Of a stretch of DNA of 64,000 nucleotides, positions 49,844-62,016 are shown in pieces (position 1 is the first letter of the stretch; each line of letters begins with the position of its first letter). Made by a program: the position numbers and the translations under genes. This DNA is from Nostoc sp. FACHB-973 (GTDB lineage: Bacteria > Cyanobacteriota > Cyanobacteriia > Cyanobacteriales > Nostocaceae). The notes below the pieces were generated by a model that saw nothing but the letters and a program-made list of their open reading frames with translations, ran no database searches and was not told the DNA's origin. The stretch spans positions 1-64,000 of the forward strand of contig NZ_JACJSJ010000012.1 in NCBI RefSeq assembly GCF_014698115.1, written 5' to 3'.

Positions 49844-50824
49844 TTAATGGGCAACTTCTGTAAAAACACCAATTTTGCGGAATTTTTCATAGCGAAGTTG
49901 GCGGCGTTCTGGGGCGGTTAAGCGGTTGAGTTCTTCCAAATTTTCCAACAGCACTTGCTTGAGAGTGGTAGCAGCTTTCAAAGGGTCGGAATGAGCCCCA
50001 CCGATGGGTTCAGGCAATATCTGGTCGATAATTCCTAAATTTTTCAGGTCGTGGGAAATAATTTTGAGGGCGACGGCGGCTTGGGGAGCTTTGCCAGCAT
50101 CTTTCCACAAAATGGCGGCACAAGCTTCGGGGGTAGCGACGGTATAAACTGAGTGTTCAAACATCAGTAAACGATCGCCAACACCAATACCAAGGGCGCC
50201 ACCGGAACCACCTTCACCGATAACTGTGCAGATAATAGGCACATCTAGGCAGAACATTTCCCGCAGGTTGTAGGCGATCGCTTCTCCTTGACCTTGGTGT
50301 TCAGCTTCCACCCCAGACCAAGCTCCCGGCGTGTCGATAAAAGTTAAAATCGGCATCCCGAACTTGTTGGCGTGTTCCATTAACCGCAATGCTTTACGGT
50401 AGCCGCCAGGATAAGGCATACCAAAGTTGCGGGCAATATTGTCTTTAGTATCGCGGCCTTTTTGATGACCCAACATGACCACGGGTTGTCCACTCAGACG
50501 CCCAACACCACCAACTAAAGCAGGATCGTCACCACCACAGCGATCGCCATGTAACTCCATCCATTCATCACTAATTGCTTGAATGTAATCGAGAGTACTA
50601 GGGCGGCGCGGATGACGAGCGACTTGCAATCGCTGGGATGGGGATAAACTACTAAAAATTTCCTCACGCAGCTGCATGGCGCGTGTTTCTAGTTGACGAA
50701 TTTGACCAGAAACATCAACGCCATTTTCTTCAGCAAGTTGCCGAATTTGATCGATTCGGGTTGCAAGTTCTGCTAGAGGCTTTTCAAAATCCAACAGTAG
50801 CGGTTTACGTTCAGTAGTTGCCAT
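49844..50824 (-). CDS. accA: Acetyl-CoA carboxylase carboxyltransferase alpha subunit
   Basis: 326 residues. Together with AccD transfers CO2 from biotin to acetyl-CoA, giving malonyl-CoA for fatty acids. Landmarks: [13 protein letters not shown] near residue 70, [35 protein letters not shown] and [16 protein letters not shown]. It lies next to aar, consistent with the conserved ado-aar-accA order of cyanobacteria that make alkanes from fatty acyl-ACP. An STRR pair lies between aar and accA. Confidence 0.97.
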
Positions 50825-50833
50825 AGTTAGAGG

Positions 50834-50960
50834 ATAACGAATAGGGAGTAGGGAGTAGGGAATAGGGAATAGGGATTTAGGTATTGGAGAGTAAGAATTG
50901 AAAATGATTGCTTAGTACCCATTCCCCACTCCCCATTCTCCACTCCCCACTCCCCATTCC
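50834..50960. repeat. Inverted STRR pair between aar and accA
   Basis: GAATAGGGAGTAGGGAGTAGG faces CCCCACTCCCCATTCTCCAC with a short AT-rich loop. Confidence 0.85.
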
Positions 50961-51980
50961 CTAAACCAACAACGGTCTAAATCCATGTTTCACTGACACC
51001 CGACCAATCTGCTCCATTTTGTCTACAGTAATCTGATTGCGTCCCCATGAAAAGTTTGTGTACAACTTCTCAAATTCCAGCAACATGGATTCGGCAAAAC
51101 AAGCAAACAACTGGCGTGCTGGTACGTCCATATTGACGATTTTCATAATTTTCCAGTCAATATCCAGGGAATGCTCTACAATTCCACCATTTAACACGTA
51201 TACACCGGGATGTTGAATTTTTGTTGCTAAATTTTTAGGATAACCACCATCAATCAACAAACATGGTTGTTTCAAAACAGTAGGTTCAATTTCTACACCT
51301 TTGGGCATACTGGCAACCCAAACTACAATATCCGCTTGGGGTAGTGCTTCGGTCAAACTCATGACTTTTCCTCGCCCCAGTTCGCCTTGTAACTCTTTGA
51401 GACGTTCTTGATCGCGGGCTATTAGCAGAAGTTCTTGGACATCTGTTTTCGCATCTAACCAGCGTGTAACTGCACTGCCAATATCCCCTGTTGCGCCACA
51501 TATAGCAACTGTTGCTTTTGAGAGTTCAATTCCCAGTTGTTTTGATGCTTCTTCTACCTGCCGACTAATAATATAGGCAGTGTGGGTATTTCCTGTAGTG
51601 AAGCGTTCAAACTCTAGTTTGATGTTGCGGACTTGGCTAAACTGTTCCAACTTAAAATTTTCAAAAATAATCGAGGAAAATCCGCCTAAAGCCGTAATAT
51701 TAATGCCATGTTTTTGTGCATGTGCCATAGCATTAAGCACTTTGCGCGTTGCGGCTTTGATGCGGCGGGTAGCTAGCATCTCTGGTAAAAAACAAGATTC
51801 TACATAACGTCCTTCAATTTTCTGTCCAGTGACACTGGTAACAGTAATATTATCGACAATTTGTGGCGGGGCGCTGCACCAAAAATCTAGCCCTTGATCG
51901 GCATATTCTGGATATCCCAATTCTTTAGCTACTGCTTGAGCGTGTTCTAAACTAGTCAGATGTCCAATTAGACCAAACAT
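50961..51980 (-). CDS. aar: Long-chain fatty acyl-ACP reductase
   Basis: 339 residues from the ATG at 51980 ([15 protein letters not shown]); the open frame upstream is repeat DNA. Reduces acyl-ACP to fatty aldehyde with NADPH. Features: [24 protein letters not shown] site [11 protein letters not shown], and the nucleophilic Cys in [15 protein letters not shown]. It is followed by accA and preceded by ado, the two-gene alkane pathway of cyanobacteria (heptadecane and relatives). CTGAGTG-type repeats lie between ado and aar. Confidence 0.96.
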
Positions 51981-52009
51981 GTAATGATTATTAGCCTTGT
52001 GCTGTCTTG

Positions 52010-52095
52010 AGCGCGTGGAATAGTGAGTGCTGAGTGCTGTTAGCGGTAGCGGGGCGTTGAGCCATTGCTGAGTGCTGAGTGCTGAGTGTTGAAGC
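52010..52095. repeat. GAGTGCT STRR
   Basis: GAGTGCTGAGTGCTG units on both sides of a GTTAGCGGTAGCGGGGCG palindrome-like insert, between ado and aar. Confidence 0.85.
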
Positions 52096-52172
52096 AGTAT
52101 GTAAGTAAAAAACAAGCAATAAGTTCAGATAATTTCTTCACTCTTGACTCTTCACTCATAACTCAGCACTTT

Positions 52173-52871
52173 TTAAGCGGCTGTGAGTCCGTGGGCTGAC
52201 AAGCGCATAATTTCAAAAGTTTTGAAACCAATGTTACTTAATGCTTCACCGTACTGAATCATAAAGTCTTCTATTAAAGCCTCTTTTTCCATTGCTAGAG
52301 TTTTTGCATCATCCGCTACTTCGTTGAGCATTTTCCAAACAAGTGGGAGGTTTTGGCGATTGGCTTGTTCTAATTCAGCTTTAGATTCTGCAAAGTGTTC
52401 TTTGAGCCAAACTTCTCCAAAGTTGAGATGACTGTATTCATCTTTTACTACTCCCTCAGTGATTTTGCGGGCAAAATCGTCAGCAACGGGAATGTAGATG
52501 TTGTATGCTGCGATCGCAAAACATTCGATAATCAAAGACTGAATCAACAAACAAGTGACGACTTTGCCTTGGGCGGCGGCTGTTTGGAAGTTTTGGTGGA
52601 GTCCAGAGAAAAATTCTTTGGCAAATTGCAAGTCTGGGGTAACTTGCAAATTGCGTCCACAAGCTTCAAATCCTTTCTTATGGCGACTTTCCATCTTGGA
52701 TAGACGAATCAATTCTGTTTGGGATTCTGGCAGCAGTTCGGCTAGTTGGATGTAATTTTCATGGGCTTCTTGTTCCCCTTCAATCACGATCGCATTAATC
52801 CGGCTATAAGCGTCTTTGTATTTTTCACTTTTGAAATCAATTTCAAGAAATTGGTCTGTAAGCTGCTGCAT
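52173..52871 (-). CDS. ado: Aldehyde-deformylating oxygenase
   Basis: 232 residues, the usual length. Ferritin-like di-iron protein that turns fatty aldehyde into an alkane and formate. Iron ligands are visible in [34 protein letters not shown] and [15 protein letters not shown] (E, E-x-x-H, E, E-x-x-H). GGAGAAAACATACC lies before the ATG at 52871. It starts the ado-aar-accA-SDR string and is divergent from the ABC permease gene; promoters of both must lie in the 179-base gap. Confidence 0.97.
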
Positions 52872-53050: not shown

Positions 53051-53878
53051 ATGTCTCAACCAAACTGGAATCTCAAATCTAGGGATTTTGTCAGCCTAGT
53101 AGTGTTACTGCTAGGAGCATTTATCGTTCTGCTACCCCTGTTTGTGGTCTTTCTCACCTCCTTTGCACCGACAATCGCAAGCCCAGAAGATTTGTCCCAA
53201 AATAACTGGTCTTTAGCTAATTACCAGGCTGCATGGCAGCAAGGGAAATTTTTGCTGGCGTTTGCTAATTCTACCTTGGTAGCGATCGCTGTGACGGCGT
53301 TTCAAATTCTCACTTCCGCTTTAGCTGGTTACGCCCTCGCACGGCTAAAGTTTCGGGGACGCCAAGCACTGCTGTTAATCGTCTTGGCAACTTTGGTGAT
53401 TCCCTTTCAATTGTTGGTAATTCCGATTTTTTTGGTGTTGAAATGGGGACACCTGATAAATACCTACGGAGCGCTAATTTTACCCACTGCGGTCAACGGC
53501 TTCGGTATTTTCTTATTACGTCAATATTTCCAGACAATTCCTCTGGAGTTAGAAGAAGCCGCAGCCATAGACGGCGCGAACCGACTACAAATTTTGTGGC
53601 GAGTGATGTTACCTTTAGCCCGTCCGGCGCTAGTAACACTGTTTTTGTTCACCTTCATCGGCGAATGGAATGATTTATTTAAGCCTTTGGTCTTTACCAC
53701 ACGACCGGAATTAAGAACCGTACAGTTGGCATTAGCTGAATTTCAGGAGCAATTTACGAATAATTGGCCTTTAATGATGGCAGCAGTAACAATAGCCACA
53801 GTCCCAGTCATGGTGTTGTTTTTGATTGGTCAGCGTCAGTTTATTCGGGGTATTGCCACGACAGGGATTAAGAATTGA
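53051..53878 (+). CDS. Carbohydrate ABC transporter permease (MalG type)
   Basis: 275 residues, six membrane helices, with the EAA loop EEAAAIDGANRLQILWRVMLP that contacts the ATPase. N-terminal LGAFIVLLPLFVVFLTSF is helix 1, and the large periplasmic loop contains the family's SLANYQAAW pattern. This is the second of the two permeases normally found in sugar importers; the first permease, binding protein and ATPase are not adjacent, so it works with components encoded elsewhere. Substrate unknown. Confidence 0.92.
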   Translation: MSQPNWNLKSRDFVSLVVLLLGAFIVLLPLFVVFLTSFAPTIASPEDLSQNNWSLANYQAAWQQGKFLLAFANSTLVAIAVTAFQILTSALAGYALARLKFRGRQALLLIVLATLVIPFQLLVIPIFLVLKWGHLINTYGALILPTAVNGFGIFLLRQYFQTIPLELEEAAAIDGANRLQILWRVMLPLARPALVTLFLFTFIGEWNDLFKPLVFTTRPELRTVQLALAEFQEQFTNNWPLMMAAVTIATVPVMVLFLIGQRQFIRGIATTGIKN

Positions 53879-54427
53879 ACAGCAAAGGCTGAGCGTGAGT
53901 AAAAGCCCGCCTTAGATTGAAATTTAACCGGTCGCGGAAGTCCCCATCTTCTGGTTCGACAAACCTCTCCCTGCCTTGAACTTTAGTAAGACTTACGCAC
54001 TGTACAAATGCATCGTAATGTGAATGAACGATGCTCCCGGTTGTTTCAGGCTTTTCTTAATTATCCTGCGATGCCTACGGCGGTAAACTACGTAAATAGA
54101 CCATGCTGTAGGGGCACAGCAATGCTGTGCCCTTACGAAAGATGTGGTTTTTAAACTCATTCATATTTGGCATTTCTTGTCAATGCGTAAGTCCTATTTA
54201 GTTCAAGTCTGTCCCTCTCCGACTCGGAGAGGGATGGTTTTGCGTAGTAAAACCACGGAGAGGTCTTTTAATTGAGCTAATTAGCCGGACAGTGTACAAG
54301 CCATCGAACTCAATCACGTTAATAAAAATCCGGAAGAAAAATGTCAACTTTTATTACACACTCCGTAATTCTTACAGGTCAACTTGAACTAATAATTATC
54401 CACATTCCGTAAGGAACCCAAACAATC
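53879..54427. other. Intergenic region upstream of the first cassette
   Basis: Contains a GCGATGCCTACGGCGG repeat (54066), a GTAGGGGCACAGCAATGCTG palindrome (54110-54137), and a stem CCCTCTCCGA/CTCGGAGAGGG (54214-54236) followed by ATGGTTTTG, a possible terminator. At 54351-54399 begins a stretch that is repeated upstream of the second cassette (57620-57670). No other gene. Confidence 0.7.
54351..54399 (+). promoter_or_regulatory. Conserved leader of cassette 1
   Basis: TTATTACACACTCCGTAATT followed by CTTACAGGTCAACTTGAACTAATAATTAT. About three quarters of positions are shared with 57620-57670. Its position 30-80 bases before a small-protein gene suggests a promoter or 5' leader. Confidence 0.5.
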
Positions 54428-54745
54428 ATGAGTTCTCAACCAGTCCTAGACCCTCAAACATTAGAGCAGTTACAAAACGAGATTCAGGAAAAATTTAACG
54501 AAACCCTAGAAAACGCTGACTTCAATTCACTACTTGAAAAGTACGGCATATTACAAGATAGAGTTTTGAGAGTTTATTGGCAGTTTAATCTTGACCCAAA
54601 TCAACTCAAATCTGATGATGCAGTTGATGAACAGCAACCCAATGCATTGTTGCCAACAACTCCAATACCGGAAATTGTGTTAGTTAAAAAAGCGTGGTGT
54701 ATTCCTTGTCCTACAAATAACAATCCTTTAGGTTGTAACTGCTAA
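54428..54745 (+). CDS. Small protein with Cys-rich tail, cassette 1
   Basis: 105 residues; I cannot name its family. The N-terminal half (about 11-40) has LEQLQNEIQEKF and NADFNSLLEKYG, shared at 16 of 30 positions with the product of 57832. A Ser/Asp/Gln linker follows, then a tail VLVKKAWCIPCP...GCNC with four cysteines in the last 17 residues. A conserved helical leader and a short variable Cys-rich end is the layout of a ribosomal peptide precursor, but there is no GG motif, nif11 or NHLP leader, and no modifying enzyme next to it. AAGGAACCC lies before the ATG. 71 bases downstream starts a TPS exoprotein gene. Confidence 0.7.
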   Translation: MSSQPVLDPQTLEQLQNEIQEKFNETLENADFNSLLEKYGILQDRVLRVYWQFNLDPNQLKSDDAVDEQQPNALLPTTPIPEIVLVKKAWCIPCPTNNNPLGCNC

Positions 54746-54816
54746 ATAATTTAGTCTTTGTACTGTAAAAAGTTTATCCTAGTTAGTAACTCTGATTTTT
54801 TGAGCGCAAGTTTGTA

Positions 54817-57276
54817 ATGTCTCAAAATCGAAGCAGTTGGTACTGGGATTTAGGGACAGTGAGTACTCTCGCAATTGTTGGAGTACTCACTTACTGTGAG
54901 GGTTTTGCTTTAGCCCAAATTCAAAAGGATGACACTCTTGGAGTTGAAAGTTCAATCATTACACCAAAGTTAATTGATGGTCACCCTATAGACCAGATTG
55001 ATGGAGGGGCAATTCGTGGTAAAAACTTGTTCCACAGCTTTGACAAGTTTTCTGTGTCTGTGGGAAGGACAGCTTATTTTAACAATTCAATAGATATTCA
55101 AAATATTATCAGTCGAGTCACGGGCAATTCTATTTCTAATATAGATGGCATTCTCAAAGCTAATGGTGCTGCCAATCTATTTTTGATTAATCCCAACGGC
55201 ATTGTTTTTGGAGCAAATGCTTCTTTAAACATCGGTGGTTCATTTGTGGCAAGTACGGCAAGTAGTTTAAATTTTGCCGATGGTATAAAGTTTAGCACTA
55301 CGGCTCCTGAATCTGCACCTCTGCTAACAGTAAGTGTTCCCATTGGCTTACAATTTGGAGCAACTGCGGCTCCCATCCGCAATCAATCCCAAGCAAGTCC
55401 AGAAGGCGCAACCAATACTTTAAGACAAGGTGTTGGTCTACAGGTGCCCTCAGGTAAAACCTTGGCATTAATAGGCGGTGACATAACACTAGGCAGCGGA
55501 AATTTAACTGCAAAGGCAGGAAAAATTGAGTTAGGAAGCGTCGCTCCTAATAGTTTGGTCAGTCTGAGTTCAACGAATCAAGCTTGGACATTTGGATATG
55601 AAGGTGTTGAAAATTTTCAGAATATCGCACTGGTCAAGTTAAATGAAATTCCATCTACTATAGATACCAGTGGCGAAAGTGGCGGCGATATCCACTTGCA
55701 AGGCAAGCATGTGCTGGTAACTGACTGTTCATACCTGTTTGCTATTACTTGGGGAACGCAATCAGGAGGAAATTTGGCAGTGGACGCTTCCGAGTCTGTA
55801 GAACTTGGACAAAATGCGTTCTTGTTTAGTGGAACTTTCAACACTGGTAACTCTGGAAGTATAAATATCACTACCAAAAAGTTCATTGCCAGGAATGGAG
55901 CGCAAGTATCAATGTACAGTGTTGGCTCTGGACTGCCGGGGGAACTGACTTTAAACGCCTCAGATTCAGTAGAACTCATCAGTGGCACCCCCATTACTCC
56001 ATTCCCAGATGGTACTGATTTAATAGTGAGTGGATTATTTAGTGAAACTTATGGTAGTCAAAATGCTGGCAACATAACAGTTAACACTGCAAAGTTGCGT
56101 ATCGAGGGAGGGGCAAGAATATCAACAAGTTCTGAAGGCATCTATCAGTCTGGTCTAAACAAATTTACACCAGTTACAGGAAAAGGAGGAAAGTTGACGG
56201 TGAACGCCTCTGAATTTATAGAACTAATTGGAACCTCACCAAATGGTTCTAAGCTCAGCGGCTTATTTTCTGGAACTCAAGGGCCTGGAGATGGGGGAAA
56301 CTTGACGGTAACAACAGGGCAATTGATTATCAAAGATGGGGCTGCAATAACTGTCAACAGCCAAGCTCGAAAGGATGTAATTTATGTGGGAGATCCCAAA
56401 AATTTAGGCAAAGCAGGCGATTTAAATATAACTGCTAACTCCATACTGCTGGACAATAAAGGAAAACTCACATCTAATAGTGAATCAGGCAAAGGTGGAA
56501 ATATTAGGTTACAGCCGCGAGACTTGTTATTGATGCGGGGTAACAGTCAAATATCGACTAACGCCGGAGGTGATAAAACTGGCGGTAACATCACCATAAA
56601 TTCGCCTAATGGCTTTGTTGTCACCCCTCTTTTTGGAAATAGCGATATCACTGCCAATGCCTTCTCTGGCTCTGGTGGTAAAATCACAATCACCACTAAA
56701 AACATCTTTGGATTTGTGTCCCGCACTCGTGCAGAGGTAGAGAAGTTAGATGCACAACAAATAAACCCGAATAATCTGCCAACAAGTGATATCACAGCAT
56801 TTTCCCAGCAAAATCCTTCATTAAGTGGCACAGTACAAATTAATTCACCAGATGCAGATCCCAGTAAAGGATTAGTGCAATTGCCGGTAAATTTAGTTGA
56901 TGCTTCTCAGCAAATTGTTGCTGGTTGTGGTTCTGGTGCAAAAATAGCCAGGAGTTCATTTACTAACACTGGACGTGGAGGAACAGCACCCGATCCCACA
57001 CAGCTTTTGATGGCTGATGCAGTGCTAGCAGATTGGATAACGCTGAATCCAGAAAGTGAGAATCGTGCTGAGGAAACCGATAACAAAGTAGTTGTTCAGA
57101 CGCAGCGAAACACAGAAAAATCACAGAAAGTGAATTCTGTCAATGAACCTAGTGAAATTGTGGAAGCCCAAGGATGGATAATGGATGCCGATGGGAACGT
57201 GGTTTTGGTTGCTGAAGTACCCGCTGGGATGCCTCATAGTTCTTTGCTAGCGGCTGCATCTTGTCCTGCTAATTAG
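54817..57276 (+). CDS. Two-partner secretion exoprotein, cassette 1
   Basis: 819 residues. Signal peptide to about residue 31 (GFALA|Q), then a filamentous-haemagglutinin N-terminal (TPS) domain with the diagnostic NxxLFLINPNGIVFGANASLNIGGSFVAS, split by me as LFLINPNGIVFGAN and ASLNIGGSF. The rest is a beta-helix of short Gly-rich repeats (GDITLGSGNLTAKAG, GGNITINSPNG). The end carries a conserved cyanobacterial tail (GLVQLPVNLVDASQQIVAGC, EAQGWIMDADGNVVLVAEVP). Such proteins cross the outer membrane through a TpsB pore, not present here. The paralogue is at 58435. Confidence 0.9.
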   Translation: MSQNRSSWYWDLGTVSTLAIVGVLTYCEGFALAQIQKDDTLGVESSIITPKLIDGHPIDQIDGGAIRGKNLFHSFDKFSVSVGRTAYFNNSIDIQNIISRVTGNSISNIDGILKANGAANLFLINPNGIVFGANASLNIGGSFVASTASSLNFADGIKFSTTAPESAPLLTVSVPIGLQFGATAAPIRNQSQASPEGATNTLRQGVGLQVPSGKTLALIGGDITLGSGNLTAKAGKIELGSVAPNSLVSLSSTNQAWTFGYEGVENFQNIALVKLNEIPSTIDTSGESGGDIHLQGKHVLVTDCSYLFAITWGTQSGGNLAVDASESVELGQNAFLFSGTFNTGNSGSINITTKKFIARNGAQVSMYSVGSGLPGELTLNASDSVELISGTPITPFPDGTDLIVSGLFSETYGSQNAGNITVNTAKLRIEGGARISTSSEGIYQSGLNKFTPVTGKGGKLTVNASEFIELIGTSPNGSKLSGLFSGTQGPGDGGNLTVTTGQLIIKDGAAITVNSQARKDVIYVGDPKNLGKAGDLNITANSILLDNKGKLTSNSESGKGGNIRLQPRDLLLMRGNSQISTNAGGDKTGGNITINSPNGFVVTPLFGNSDITANAFSGSGGKITITTKNIFGFVSRTRAEVEKLDAQQINPNNLPTSDITAFSQQNPSLSGTVQINSPDADPSKGLVQLPVNLVDASQQIVAGCGSGAKIARSSFTNTGRGGTAPDPTQLLMADAVLADWITLNPESENRAEETDNKVVVQTQRNTEKSQKVNSVNEPSEIVEAQGWIMDADGNVVLVAEVPAGMPHSSLLAAASCPAN

Positions 57277-57831
57277 AAATCGATGTTGTTGACTAATGGT
57301 TATTTAAAAAGGTGCTATTCAAATATTTGCCTTAGAACTTATCTGTGGGTGCGATCGCTGATTCACTATGATCTTCATACAAGCGATCGCACCTTGTAAA
57401 CTCAACTGCCAGTGCGTTGGCGTAGCCCGTCGTAGACATCGCGCCCTTTGTACTAAAACTCAGCTGTAGGTGCGTTGGCGTAGCCTACCGTACTTTTCCG
57501 GAGAAGCAAGCTAAGCGTAGCGTCTCGCAGAGAAAGTATCAATTACTCTTCTTCCATCAACAACAGTTAGCAACCAGATTCATCAATGCTTTAAGGAAAT
57601 CGAACAAAAATATATGAAGTTATGTTACACAATGCGTAATTATTACTAGTCAAGCTGAAGTCATAATTATGGGAGTTCGCAAGAGCTTTAGAAAGCTAAA
57701 GCTTTCGCCTCTCTTTAGACTATGTATCGTTCATTTTTATGTTGTCAGAGTGTACTAATCTAACTCTGGTTAATTTAGTAGATCACAAGATAAGTTCACA
57801 CATTTACCAGTCTGCAAGGAAACTAAAATTC
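57277..57831. other. Intergenic region between cassettes
   Basis: Holds GGTGCGTTGGCGTAGCC repeats in two copies (57418-57450 and 57466-57485), an AAGCTAAGCGTAGCGTCTCG repeat, and the second copy of the cassette leader (57620-57670). A 31-codon extension of the next gene's frame is open, but lacks a ribosome-binding site. Confidence 0.7.
57620..57670 (+). promoter_or_regulatory. Conserved leader of cassette 2
   Basis: TTATGTTACACAATGCGTAA followed by TTATTACTAGTCAAGCTGAAGTCATAATTAT, the partner of 54351-54399. It is about 160 bases from the ATG instead of 30, because extra sequence was inserted after it. Confidence 0.5.
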
Positions 57832-58143
57832 ATGACATCTCAAACTTCACAGCAAGCAGTCATTGATTCTGAATCACTACACAATTTACAAGAGGAAATT
57901 CAGCAAGAATTTATTAAAAGCTTGAAGAACGCTAATTTCACGGAAATATTAGAAAAGTATGGCGCCCCAGAAAAAATACTAAAATTTCAGTGTATTATTG
58001 ATCTAAATAAAATTCCAGATAACAGTGATAGTAGTGATAACCAAGAAATTATTGACTCTACAACAAAAAATATTTTCCAGAAGCCTAGTAAGCTAGTTAA
58101 ATTAGATTGGTGTCCACCTGAAGGTTTCTGTAGTTCACCTTAA
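57832..58143 (+). CDS. Small protein with Cys-containing tail, cassette 2
   Basis: 103 residues from the ATG at 57832 (MTSQTSQQAV), preceded by AAGGAAAC. Paralogue of 54428: LHNLQEEIQQEF and NANFTEILEKYG are shared, a Ser/Asp/Asn linker differs, and the tail is KLVKLDWCPPEGFCSSP. Both tails share the pattern LVK-x2-W-C-x-P while the residues after it differ in length and sequence. Downstream, 58435, a TPS exoprotein paralogue follows. The conserved front and changing tail suggest a precursor or chaperone-like adaptor; function unknown. Confidence 0.7.
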   Translation: MTSQTSQQAVIDSESLHNLQEEIQQEFIKSLKNANFTEILEKYGAPEKILKFQCIIDLNKIPDNSDSSDNQEIIDSTTKNIFQKPSKLVKLDWCPPEGFCSSP

Positions 58144-58340
58144 TAGTGTTATAAACTTAACTGCTGTAATCTTTAATTTATGAAAAAAGAAAATAATAAA
58201 ATGACGCTGTAAATTATTTCCTTTGTAATATTGATTACAGAAAATTCTGATTTATTTTCCATAAGCTATCTCACCATTAGTGAAATTGATAACAATACTT
58301 TTAGTGAGTTATTGCTTTTTTAATCCTCTTGAATACCGCT

Positions 58341-58376
58341 GTTGATAGAGACACAAATTTTTGTGTCTCTATCAAC
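58341..58376 (+). terminator. 16-bp perfect hairpin between cassette 2 genes
   Basis: GTTGATAGAGACACAA/TTGTGTCTCTATCAAC with a four-base loop ATTT, between the small-protein gene and its exoprotein gene. No T-run follows, so it may be an attenuator or repeat rather than a full terminator. Confidence 0.55.
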
Positions 58377-58434
58377 ATATTGTTTGCAAATATGTTCAGC
58401 ATCTGGTAGTTTTTTAAAGGGATGAACATCTGAT

Positions 58435-60783
58435 ATGAGTAATCTTTGGGGCTGGTGTCAAGGGCTAGGAGTTACAATAGTTAGTGCAATAGCTGGTTCT
58501 GCAAACTCTGCTATTGCCCAAATCAGCCCGGATAGTACTCTACCTGAGAATTCTCGCGTTAGAGAACAAGGCAACATCAGAATTATTCAAGGTGGAACCC
58601 TATCCAAAGATGGACACAATCTGTTCCACAGTTTTAAGGAATTTTCTTTAACTAAGGATAATACGGCCGATTTTCAATATTTCGGTAACGTTCAGAACAT
58701 TATTAGTCGGGTAACGGGTAAATCTAGGTCTAATATTGATGGCATCCTTAAAGTTAACGGCACAGCTAACCTCTTTTTAATTAATCCCAACGGAATTATT
58801 TTTGGTCCCAATGCTTCTTTGCAAATTGGCGGCTCATTTGTGGCGAGTACGGCGAGTAGTCTAAATTTCGCCGATGGGACAAAGTTTAGTGCTACAGATC
58901 CCCAAAGTACACCTCTGCTAACAGTAAGTGTTCCCACTGGTTTACAATTCGGAGCAACTGCTGAATATATCCGCAATCAATCCCAAGCAAAAAATCCAGA
59001 TGGTAAAACAACTAATATCTTTGAGCGACCTGTTGGTCTACAAGTCCAGCCAGACAAAACCTTAGCATTGATAGGCGGTAATATCACACTGGAAGGCGGA
59101 AATTTAACTGCAAAGGGGGGACAAATTGAGCTAGGAAGCGTTAATAGCAATAGTCTAGTCAGTCTTAACCCAACGAGCAAAGGCTGGAGTTTCGGATATG
59201 AAGGTGTTCAGAATTTCCAGAACATACTACTTATCCCGCGAATAGAAGGTTCTGGTATTCCATCTCAGGTAGATGCTAGCGGCAATAGTGGAGGTAGTAT
59301 CCAACTAAAGGCAAAGTCTGTGGAACTCAGAGGTCACCGTGTGCGTTTGATAAGTCAGACTACAGGTGACGGACATGGTAAAGATGTAACTATTAATACA
59401 GAGAAATTAATTATTAGGGATGGCGCACAAATAGGGACTTCTACAAGTGGCAAGGGCGTTGGGGGAAATTTGATTGTGAATGCCTCCGAATCCATAGAAC
59501 TTATTGGTGGCTATTCCATACCAAATAATTTTGTGTCCAGTGGTCTGTTTAGTGAAACCTTTGCTACCGCAGATGCGGGTGACATAACAATCAACACTAG
59601 GAGGTTGAGTATTCAAGCTGGGGCGCAGGTATCAGCAGCATCTACTGGAGTACGTTTACCTCCCCTATATAACCAACTTCAACCAGCAACAGGAAATGCA
59701 GGGAATTTAACTGTTAAAGCCACTGAAATCGAGCTAATTGGAATGTCACCAACAAAGTTTCCCAGCAGTTTATGGGCTAGAACTCAAGGTTCGGGAAATG
59801 CGGGTAAAGTAACAATCGATACAGCGAAATTGATTATTCGAGATGGGGCTGCAATCAATCTGAGCAGTGAAATTCCGAAAAATGTAATTTATCTGGGGGA
59901 TGCAAGTAAGTTAGGTTCAGCAGGTGAACTCAATATAACCGCTCGCTCAATCCTGCTCGACGAAGGAAAACTCACATCTAATAGTGAATCAGGTCAAGGT
60001 GGAAATATTTCGCTACAGGTGCGGGACTTATTACTGATGCGCCGCAATAGCCAAATATCCACTAATGCAGGGGGTGATAAAACTGGGGGTAACATCACCA
60101 TCAAAGCACCAAATGGCTTCATCGTCGCCCCTCTTTTTGCAAATAGTGATATCACTGCCAATGCCATCTCTGGGTCTGGTGGCAAAATCACAATCACTAC
60201 TAAAAACATCTTTGGATTTGTGCGGCGCACAGGTGCAGAGGTAGAGAGGCTTGATCCAACAGGGAAAAAAGACCCGAATAATCTGCCAACAAATGATATC
60301 ACCGCGTTTTCTCAGCAAAACTCTTTATTAGAGGGGACAGTACAAATCAACTCACCAGATGTTGACCCCAGTAAGGGATTAGTGCAATTGCCTGCAAATC
60401 TAGTTGATGCTTCCCAGCAAATTGTTGCTGGTTGCGGTTCTGGTACAAAAATAGCCAGGAGTACATTTACTAACACTGGGCGTGGAGGAACAATACCCGA
60501 TCCCACACAGCCATTGACGACTGATGCAGTGCTGACAGATTGGATAACACTGAATCCAGAAGGTCAGAATCGTGCTGAGGGTATGAAGAATAGAGTGGTT
60601 GTTGAGAAGCAGGTGAACAGTGAAAAATCACAGAAAGTGAATTATGTCAATGAACATAGTGAAATTGTGGAAGCCCAAGGATGGATAACTGATGTCAATG
60701 GTAACGTGGTTCTAGTTGCTGAAGTACCCACTACAACGCCCCATAGTTCATCGCTGATGGCTGCGTTTTGCGCTGCTAAATAG
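58435..60783 (+). CDS. Two-partner secretion exoprotein, cassette 2
   Basis: 782 residues, paralogue of 54817. Signal peptide to about residue 28 (NSAIA|Q), TPS domain with ANLFLINPNGIIFGPN and LQIGGSFVAS, then Gly-rich beta-helix repeats (KVTIDTAKLIIRDGA, GGNISLQVRDLLLMR). Close similarity to 54817 at both ends, with more divergence in the middle third, suggests a duplication followed by change in the exposed stem. Tail GLVQLPANLVDASQQIVAGC and EAQGWITDVNGNVVLVAEVP is again conserved. Export requires a TpsB partner elsewhere. Confidence 0.9.
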   Translation: MSNLWGWCQGLGVTIVSAIAGSANSAIAQISPDSTLPENSRVREQGNIRIIQGGTLSKDGHNLFHSFKEFSLTKDNTADFQYFGNVQNIISRVTGKSRSNIDGILKVNGTANLFLINPNGIIFGPNASLQIGGSFVASTASSLNFADGTKFSATDPQSTPLLTVSVPTGLQFGATAEYIRNQSQAKNPDGKTTNIFERPVGLQVQPDKTLALIGGNITLEGGNLTAKGGQIELGSVNSNSLVSLNPTSKGWSFGYEGVQNFQNILLIPRIEGSGIPSQVDASGNSGGSIQLKAKSVELRGHRVRLISQTTGDGHGKDVTINTEKLIIRDGAQIGTSTSGKGVGGNLIVNASESIELIGGYSIPNNFVSSGLFSETFATADAGDITINTRRLSIQAGAQVSAASTGVRLPPLYNQLQPATGNAGNLTVKATEIELIGMSPTKFPSSLWARTQGSGNAGKVTIDTAKLIIRDGAAINLSSEIPKNVIYLGDASKLGSAGELNITARSILLDEGKLTSNSESGQGGNISLQVRDLLLMRRNSQISTNAGGDKTGGNITIKAPNGFIVAPLFANSDITANAISGSGGKITITTKNIFGFVRRTGAEVERLDPTGKKDPNNLPTNDITAFSQQNSLLEGTVQINSPDVDPSKGLVQLPANLVDASQQIVAGCGSGTKIARSTFTNTGRGGTIPDPTQPLTTDAVLTDWITLNPEGQNRAEGMKNRVVVEKQVNSEKSQKVNYVNEHSEIVEAQGWITDVNGNVVLVAEVPTTTPHSSSLMAAFCAAK

Positions 60784-60984: not shown

Positions 60985-62016
60985 CTAATTCGTCTCCTGA
61001 ATCTGTAAACGTACTGTGTGTTCTGTCGTGCCACTCAGTTGCAACTCCATAATTTCACCACCGAGAGGTTCTAAGCAAGTGAGGAGCGATCGCAAGTTGG
61101 GTGTACTTGCACCAGTATCTACATATAATCTATCTGCCAAATTACCGATACGTTTCCAAGTCATATACAGTTTGGCGATGGTTTGTTCGATTTGAGATGC
61201 TTGATTCACCAAATCAGCAGCAACGCTCAAACAGCCGACTCTTTGCGCTTCTTCTAAGGCTGTTTCGATATCAATATTTTCCTGCGCCAAGGCCTGGACT
61301 TGAGCTGCCCCTTTGAGGTATTTTGCTAAGTTACGCGCTTCTGTAGTTACCTGCTTTAAGGTATCTACATCAGGATTGGCGGCTATTTCCTTTTGGATAA
61401 ACTTTTGGTGCGATTCTGGCAGTTTTTCCATTTCCTTTACCAGAGGGGCGATGTAGCGCGGCGGAAGGGTGTTATCTGCGGCTTTTGCTCTGACTGGTTC
61501 AGGTAGTAATTCTGAGGACATAGCTGTCCATTCATCGGTGAGTTGTCGCACTTCCCGCCTGGTGATGCGATCGCCTTTTTGGGCGGCTTCAGTCACCATG
61601 TGTTGTACTTCTGGGACGGCTTTGGAGGTTTCGACAAATGCCCGTTTGCTAAAGTTATTCACTGCGCTGGGGTCTAGTTTGCCTTCTTCTAAAAGGGTAT
61701 CAGCACTATTAGCTAGTTGAATCCAGGCATAAGCTTGACTTTTGCTGATTTCCCGCTCTTTTAGCCATCTGAGAAAACCTGTACCACGTCCGTCACCACC
61801 AATTTTCTCTCTGTCACGGATCGCCCGTAAAATTCGCCCCCGCCAGATTTCAGTTTGCAGATCAAAGCGATCGCATACCTGCCAAGCTATTTCGAGCTGC
61901 TGTTGAAAATCTGACTCTAGAATCTGTTCATCTTCTGGATCGGGCAGTTCAAAGGTGAGATCTGCTGGCTGTTGCAAAGCCGCAGCAAGGTCGTTGATGG
62001 GGTCGGTATCTTGCAC
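60985..62016 (-). CDS. Conserved hypothetical protein with possible HTH, 343 aa
   Basis: Not recognised. Residues about 80-125 (GTGFLRWLKEREISKSQAYAWIQLANSAD) resemble a helix-turn-helix seen in ParB/KorB-like and phage-type proteins, and residues 120-145 continue LDPSAVNNFSKRAFVETSKAV. The middle is strongly helical; the C-terminus looks beta-rich (GGEIMELQLSGTTEHTVRLQIQE). No signal or membrane segment. Single gene, start ATG 62016. It could be a DNA-binding protein, but this rests on one motif. Confidence 0.7.
   Translation of the reverse strand: MQDTDPINDLAAALQQPADLTFELPDPEDEQILESDFQQQLEIAWQVCDRFDLQTEIWRGRILRAIRDREKIGGDGRGTGFLRWLKEREISKSQAYAWIQLANSADTLLEEGKLDPSAVNNFSKRAFVETSKAVPEVQHMVTEAAQKGDRITRREVRQLTDEWTAMSSELLPEPVRAKAADNTLPPRYIAPLVKEMEKLPESHQKFIQKEIAANPDVDTLKQVTTEARNLAKYLKGAAQVQALAQENIDIETALEEAQRVGCLSVAADLVNQASQIEQTIAKLYMTWKRIGNLADRLYVDTGASTPNLRSLLTCLEPLGGEIMELQLSGTTEHTVRLQIQETN

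Follow-up and report, generated by a model that had tools for sequence, protein, structure and literature searches.

A small protein with a cysteine-rich tail, linked to one branch of two-partner-secretion exoproteins in Nostocaceae, as a possible matched pair

Introduction

What might a small protein with a variable cysteine-containing end do directly ahead of a large exoprotein gene? The question is raised by the first 64,000 nucleotides of contig NZ_JACJSJ010000012.1 of Nostoc sp. FACHB-973 (the whole stretch analyzed, here called the window), which hold two tandem modules on the plus strand, each consisting of a small protein (SP) of about 100 residues and then a two-partner-secretion (TPS) exoprotein of about 800 residues. 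A preliminary description of the sequence had proposed a peptide precursor or a matched partner whose end co-varies with the exoprotein, perhaps in a new contact-dependent or peptide system. Comparison with related loci makes it possible, and we put this forward tentatively, that SP and exoprotein are a matched pair, in which an exported Cys-rich tail peptide would act with the adjoining exoprotein. The evidence comes from linkage, from covariation of the SP tail with part of the exoprotein, and from SP copies that carry export signals.

Results and Discussion

The two modules

The modules have the same gene order, as first described (open reading frames (ORFs) at 54428-57276 and 57832-60783), and the conserved stretch reported upstream of each is real. 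Their parts are as follows.

54344..54399, plus strand: 56-bp element ahead of module 1, presumably a promoter region, sharing 43 of 56 bases with the copy at module 2
54428..54745, plus strand: SP-A, 105 aa, with the Cys tail WCIPCPTNNNPLGCNC (ORF, substitution rates, AlphaFold model)
54817..57276, plus strand: TPS1 exoprotein, 819 aa, putative partner of SP-A (PF05860, E 9.9e-62; SP-linked branch of the TPS tree)
57615..57670, plus strand: upstream element of module 2, the counterpart of the module-1 copy with the same 43 of 56 identities
57832..58143, plus strand: SP-B, 103 aa, with a variable tail ending ...LVKLDWCPPEGFCSSP (ORF, homology to SP-A)
58435..60783, plus strand: TPS2 exoprotein, 782 aa (PF05860, E 5.7e-69; residues 1 to about 500 apparently co-inherited with the SP tail)

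The SP-B frame is open from 57739, and an AGGAAA stretch lies ahead of the ATG at 57832. SP-A and SP-B are homologous (BLASTP E 6e-13, 30 of 92 positions identical), with the common N-terminal part (the front) and the LVKxxWCxP motif that had been noticed in both. The first description knew of no family linking such a small protein to TPS exoproteins, and neither exceeds the cut-off of any Pfam or NCBIfam family or has a PADLOC match, and SP-B has no plasmid match. An alignment of 31 SPs that includes both gives scattered weak family matches only, the best at E 0.0002 in Pfam (UBM, 2 members) and at E 0.0042 in NCBIfam. On these comparisons the SP family is new to the libraries searched. The AlphaFold model of SP-A (mean predicted local distance difference test (pLDDT) score 65) has a helical front (residues 9-29 and 32-38) and strands at 47-55 and 82-90, with residues 65-79 as a low-confidence linker before the second strand and the Cys tail. 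For this low-confidence model there is no fold match in the PDB at E 0.001.

TPS1 and TPS2 are 61% identical, and both carry the TPS secretion domain PF05860. In the TPS2 model a beta-helix extends over about residues 30-640, with zone 281-500 predicted confidently (block mean pLDDT 88-98), and the C-terminus (645-782) is predicted to be disordered (pLDDT mostly <50). By secretion domain and predicted beta-helix, both qualify as TpsA-type exoproteins. For the outer-membrane partner TpsB, the host genome has seven candidate matches (PF03865); one is weak and partial, and none is on the window's contig. The best Foldseek matches of the TPS2 model are HxuA, EtpA and HMW1 (4rt6/4rm6 with E 1e-8 and 1e-7, 8cpk, 2odl), so a ligand-binding or adhesive beta-helix is plausible; the TM-scores are modest (0.24-0.36 by query; the best by target, 0.70, is to the HMW1 secretion domain).

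Linkage to one exoprotein branch

With SP-A as the sole query, a match is found in 61 of 148 related genomes. A 31-row SP profile finds relatives in at least 108 of 217 genomes and at least 23 of 56 genera of the family, and across the class in at least 7 of 388 genomes, all seven from the same family as the host; as at most 12 or 22 candidates per genome were scored, counts of absence are upper limits. Among the named relatives are Nostoc calcicola, N. paludosum, N. linckia and Desmonostoc geniculatum. Because SP relatives are this frequent in the family, the occurrence of two modules in the window is not a chance observation.

For the linkage analysis, 165 SP ORFs were taken from 118 fetched regions plus the window, which cover part of the profile matches. 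Two of the regions (L215 and L216) are extensions beside matches and hold no SP, and locus L203 duplicates L087 in the SP, linkage and signal counts. Downstream of 132 of the 165, on the same strand, a TPS gene comes first; 24 are followed by a further SP and nine by neither, and the gap from SP to TPS gene has a median of 286 bases (range 38-2022). Thus, the proposed tie to TPS exoproteins is borne out. Of the nine, two (L034 and L191) are truncated at a region or contig boundary and have a TPS gene by tblastn, and L174 lies 647 bases from a contig end.

The host genome has an SP upstream of two of its 19 TPS genes (the search reached up to 1.5 kb upstream, and two of the TPS genes are close to a contig end). 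When 79 SP-linked and 21 unlinked TPS proteins are placed in one tree, the SP-linked sequences form one branch with strong support (100/98, and 100% of 200 bootstrap trees). Within this sample, the pairing is thus ancient and confined to a single exoprotein branch. The sample comprises 79 of 130 SP-linked proteins, and the unlinked ones are 16 of the 17 in the host, three from genome G007 and two from G528.

One polymorphic site and an exchanged block

The site of the modules is delimited by two further genes.

53051-53878: left flank, an ABC transporter permease-like gene (named by eye)
60985-62016, opposite strand to the modules: right flank gene

Flanking genes place the module beside the gene at 60985 at the same chromosomal site in 48 loci, including 11 from other genera. 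At this site the flanking protein has a median identity of 0.94, versus 0.64 for the exoprotein. How similar two tails are shows no relation to the similarity of their flanks (r 0.07, P 0.115), whereas TPS similarity does track the flank (r 0.80). Of the other species represented among the fetched loci, L054 is the closest: its flanking proteins match those of the window at 98-99% and its SP-A at 99% identity, but its SP-B tail is different. Identity of its TPS2 is 0.44-0.80 up to about residue 500, versus 0.75-0.93 from residue 481. In L065, from a more distant species, the SP-B tail type is that of the window, with TPS2 identities of 0.73-0.93 for roughly the first 500 residues and 0.65-0.82 from residue 481. 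These opposed identity patterns indicate exchange of a single block, SP-B plus TPS2 up to about residue 500, the end of which falls near TPS residue 500-560.

The same tail types recur in different genera: tails of the form CxCWS...CPC are found at the same site in L054, L056 and L067 of the window's genus and in L168, L184 and L206 of genus g82. Genome G569, of the same species as the window, shares the SP-B type (97% identical), with two of the three differences in the tail (WCPPHGNC versus WCPPEGFC). Relative to the window its TPS2 is 91% and its TPS1 98.5% identical.

L258 10431-10739: SP-B of G569, tail WCPPHGNCSSP

Tails are conserved in module 1 and hypervariable elsewhere

The tail, defined as the last 24 residues of the SP, has on average 4.1 Cys among 163 SPs; in these, the final 16 residues take 138 different forms, and 60 Cys spacings occur over the final 26. 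Among type-A SPs of the genus (n=35), the ratio of nonsynonymous to synonymous substitution rates (dN/dS) is lowest in the tail (0.26), slightly higher in the front (0.33) and highest in the linker (0.70). As type A was chosen by tail pattern, the tail value is partly circular; a recount by position alone makes the same point. If the SP closest to the permease is taken as that of module 1, the type-A pattern is found in 33 of 41 loci of the genus, and by eye in three more; of the rest, two are broken and three are single-module loci with another tail. Strong tail variability therefore belongs, by these comparisons, to module 2 and to other genera. The tail had been expected to vary while the front is kept, with a tail as conserved as the front counting against the proposal: the expectation holds outside module 1, whereas in module 1 the tail is as conserved as the front, which for that module is one of the two outcomes named as refuting.

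As a side observation, two genomes of the genus have a type-A-like SP that is shortened by a stop, with no TPS gene behind it by tblastn (L040 7928-8128 and L046 6413-6613). Judged from these sequences, this is decay of module 1 as a pair.

Covariation of tail and exoprotein

Covariation was analyzed in two sets: 41 syntenic non-type-A modules, controlled for the flanking gene, and 51 further modules, controlled for the TPS end. The second set includes three type-A tails missed by the pattern (L048, L055, L081) and eight signal-bearing copies as SP. Permutation tests used 99 or 199 shuffles. In the 41 modules, tail similarity correlates with that of TPS residues 321-380 given the flank (partial r 0.48, P 0.005, the minimum for 199 shuffles), also when the SP front is controlled for (partial r 0.47). 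Along the exoprotein, partial r is 0.27-0.29 at residues 1-100 and 0.34-0.48 at 281-420, with lower values at 81-300 (0.11-0.24) and 401-540 (0.13-0.21) and no tail correlation past 520 (-0.14 to 0.06; past 600, -0.07 to 0.06). The SP front is near zero at 1-140 and 281-380. In the 51 modules the tail correlates at TPS 41-140 (0.25-0.34) and 361-540 (0.23-0.34), with values about zero at 1-60, 121-300 and >520. Codon identity at unchanged residues in the 41 modules gives 0.26-0.29 at TPS 1-100 and 0.23-0.34 at 281-500, and 0.05-0.16 at 81-300 and -0.03 to 0.09 beyond 520.

When the nearest module is chosen by TPS 281-400, it has the same tail type in 30 of 41 cases (any such partner exists for 31). 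The number is 27 for TPS 401-500, 6-7 for 501-700 and 1 for 701-780, and 6 for the flank. Thus, the covariation that had been proposed with the exoprotein is seen with its first ~500 residues, most clearly the N-terminal ~100 and the central beta-helix, but not with its C-terminal end. From the sequences, SP and TPS are a linked pair with variable parts that covary beyond shared descent, with block exchange as a partial alternative. The data favor a pairing of tail with beta-helix, although blocks plus gene conversion could leave a similar trace.

Export signals on SP copies

A hydrophobicity scan flagged 28 of the 165 SPs. L175, L187 and L198, in which the stretch precedes the likely start, and the repeat L203 were dropped, leaving 24 copies in 17 loci with an N-terminal Sec- or Tat-like signal stretch. 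The signals are of several kinds: TPS-like Sec, another Sec-type in L087, a different one in L194, and Tat-like in L197 and L205. Since such copies occur in 17 loci, the tail probably acts outside the cytoplasm, to judge from its attached signals. Signal and tail are retained with the front absent in L167 and L173. In loci with both a signal-bearing and a signal-less SP, the two tails are similar (score >0.3) in 11 of 15; part of this similarity in L161 lies among its own tandem copies. The tails are dissimilar in L057, L058, L197 and L209, and also in L042, a fusion outside the 165.

Three further observations concern these copies. The Tat-like relatives are at L197 8290-8688, with a Tat signal over the Pfam cut-off (26.3 bits versus 24), and L205 7286-8368, Tat-like by its twin-arginine sequence; the Tat route would be appropriate if the tail is folded or loaded in the cytoplasm before export. 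In L161 9218-15932 (G528, another genus of the family), there are seven tandem genes in which a TPS signal is fused to an SP tail, with differing Cys tails, then one signal-less SP and one TPS gene; six of the fusions were flagged, and one is cut at the region edge. In L087 6895-7368, the SP C-terminal half and tail are fused to an unrelated secreted-type N-terminus. A PstS origin for that N-terminus, suggested by eye, is not supported by Pfam.

The exoprotein end

The suggestion of a contact-dependent system was not borne out, as far as contact-dependent inhibition (CDI) is concerned, and CDI was rejected as a candidate: the C-terminus of the exoprotein follows species, VENN and NxE/QLYN motifs occur in none of 128 exoproteins, and lengths are 709-849 aa. 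As to a CDI immunity gene, TPS2 is followed in the window by the opposite-strand gene, and among genes of at least 90 aa near the modules none recurs widely.

TPS2 has a Cys four residues from its C-terminal end. A Cys in the last 10 residues is found in 125 of 130 SP-linked TPS proteins >600 aa and also in 16 of the 21 unlinked ones listed, so it was rejected as an SP-specific docking point. Most of the unlinked TPS proteins of G000, G007 and G528 (L237-L255) with a terminal Cys have another Cys ~70-120 residues before the end, a pair that we take to be reminiscent of the HMW1 C-terminal loop.

Matched pair or other explanations

As a matched pair, the two proteins would work as follows. The SP would carry a short Cys-rich C-terminal peptide, the tail, that acts outside the cytoplasm as the cognate partner of the adjoining exoprotein and contacts its central beta-helix. 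The tail would exit the cell also in the majority of loci, where the SP is signal-less, and its cysteines may form disulfides. The pair might serve self/non-self recognition between filaments, or peptide delivery. Module 2 would then be the variable pair, and module 1 one that is fixed across the genus.

A number of observations weigh against this reading. No signal was flagged in 137 of the 165 SPs, and module-1 tails hardly vary. Positive selection on tails is not shown in the five L161 copies compared, where tail dN (0.45) is not above dS (0.54); the first 60 residues have dN 0.13 and dS 0.22. The SPs of L211, L170, L052, L040, L046 and L202 look like orphans or remnants without TPS, and L204 is counted as TPS-linked, yet its TPS gene is in pieces. 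In the 41 modules the SP front equals or beats the tail at TPS 121-180 and 481-620, and the nearest module has the same tail type in 20-23 cases when chosen by TPS 1-280 and in 21 when chosen by the SP front. The 51 modules have weak correlation at TPS 281-380 (0.11-0.15, with the 321-380 peak at only 0.11, P 0.09) and a small nearest-module contrast (22-26 for segments to 500, 17-19 beyond, 20 for the front). Joint exchange of the SP tail and TPS 1 to ~500 as a block could explain much of the covariation, and gene conversion within the conserved secretion domain could weaken the signal at TPS 100-280 without selection.

The SP could instead be an accessory factor for making, exporting or anchoring the exoprotein, its tail contacting the variable beta-helix prior to or in the course of export without being released. 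The prevalence of signal-less SPs, the constant gene order and single exoprotein branch, and a front that outside module 1 is the more conserved part, with higher model confidence, all agree with such a role. There is also a precedent in BcpO, a small ORF that is needed for full TPS function and in some alleles is allele-specific (PMC3415462). However, Cys-rich tails with about 60 spacing patterns would be unusual for chaperone contact, the tail is exported without the front in two loci, and the L161 run puts exported-type copies with differing tails before a single exoprotein; we judge an accessory role somewhat unlikely. There may, alternatively, be no functional pairing at all, if SP and TPS front are co-exchanged through homologous recombination within conserved arms while a weakly constrained tail drifts rapidly. 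The clear exchange block and the same pattern at synonymous sites are consistent with this, as is the rise of both dN and dS in the tails of the L161 array. Linkage does explain part of the covariation, because for about half of the modules tail type can also be predicted from TPS 1-280 or from the SP front. Yet the tail appears constrained, since its Cys are kept and its types recur in different genera, and the SP front, although nearer to the tail than TPS 281-400, predicts it less well. Linkage without pairing is, in our estimate, unlikely.

The SP could also be the precursor of a ribosomally synthesized and post-translationally modified peptide (RiPP) or a bacteriocin, with the front as leader and the tail as core, and the exoprotein as receptor, immunity or delivery factor. 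The predicted helical front, flexible linker and Cys-rich end resemble such a precursor, and tandem exported-type copies with diversified tails (L161) would suit it. Against this, no RiPP leader family is among the matches listed for the 31 SPs (25 of 62 in Pfam, 25 of 32 in NCBIfam); the HvfB RiPP maturase model, which is not a leader family, matches one member at E 0.063. Copies without a front exist, and no gene family of at least 90 aa recurs in more than 12 of 54 non-syntenic loci, in a count of neighbors that were not scanned for RiPP enzyme families. A precursor of this kind seems improbable. Finally, Cys codons cluster ahead of the SP stop with the TPS gene next, as for a leader that senses cysteine supply and controls the TPS gene by attenuation. 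The ~60-residue front under purifying selection in type A, the exported copies and the wide range of SP-to-TPS gaps make this hardly credible. We thus retain the matched pair of exported tail and exoprotein as the preferred, tentative reading.

Surroundings of the modules

A module-type upstream element is detectable before 99 of 164 SPs (score above the best of simple shuffles). The 26-base core of the module-2 element has a single occurrence in the host genome with up to 3 mismatches allowed, at module 2 itself, and a genome-wide regulatory element was rejected on this ground; the module-1 copy is too divergent for detection by this search. No third gene of at least 90 aa is widely recurrent near SPs, the largest cluster being that of 12 of 54 loci. 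Beside the site, genes at 49844-52871 look like accA, acyl-ACP reductase and aldehyde-deformylating oxygenase, presumably for alkane synthesis.

Comparison with known systems

We know of no job for most cyanobacterial TPS exoproteins. The SP adds a family-less partner gene, present in at least 23 of 56 genera of the family and, in the loci examined, kept beside one exoprotein branch, and its covariation with TPS gives a concrete binding hypothesis, tail versus beta-helix residues 281-500, with a natural panel of tail types at one locus. If the role is recognition, filamentous cyanobacteria would have here a means of telling self from non-self; if the role is in export, the TPS pathway would gain an accessory partner. 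No publication on a small gene linked to cyanobacterial TPS exoproteins was found by title and abstract in an open-access library. The small protein family is new to the libraries searched, and polymorphic matched pairs as a way of working have known parallels.

HxuA, EtpA and HMW1 share with TPS2 the secretion domain and, by Foldseek of the model, the beta-helix; to our knowledge they have no small hypervariable partner gene. TraA of Myxococcus and TgrB1/TgrC1 of Dictyostelium are polymorphic surface proteins of social microbes. Neither system, as far as we know, combines a TPS exoprotein and a Cys-tail gene of its own. Among small genes linked to TPS, the nearest found is bcpO of Burkholderia BcpAIOB, in which a TPS exoprotein likewise has a linked small gene and some BcpO alleles vary allele-specifically with it (PMC3415462). 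It differs in place, sequence and covarying part: the SP is upstream, has a Cys-rich variable tail and covaries with the first ~500 residues of its exoprotein and not with a toxic C-terminus, no toxin end being seen here.

In way of working, the modules may resemble the S locus of Brassicaceae (SCR/SP11 and SRK), a tightly linked pair of a small hypervariable Cys-rich ligand and a matched variable receptor, with types shared across species. Tail types are likewise shared across species here, judged from the sequences, as in SCR/SRK-like loci. That system is one of plants with a receptor kinase, and no homology is claimed. A full bacterial counterpart, in which an exported hypervariable Cys-rich peptide and a TPS receptor are co-inherited as types, exchanged as a block at one fixed site and across genera, and serve self/non-self recognition between filaments, is a bolder proposal, and we consider it quite unlikely in that complete form.

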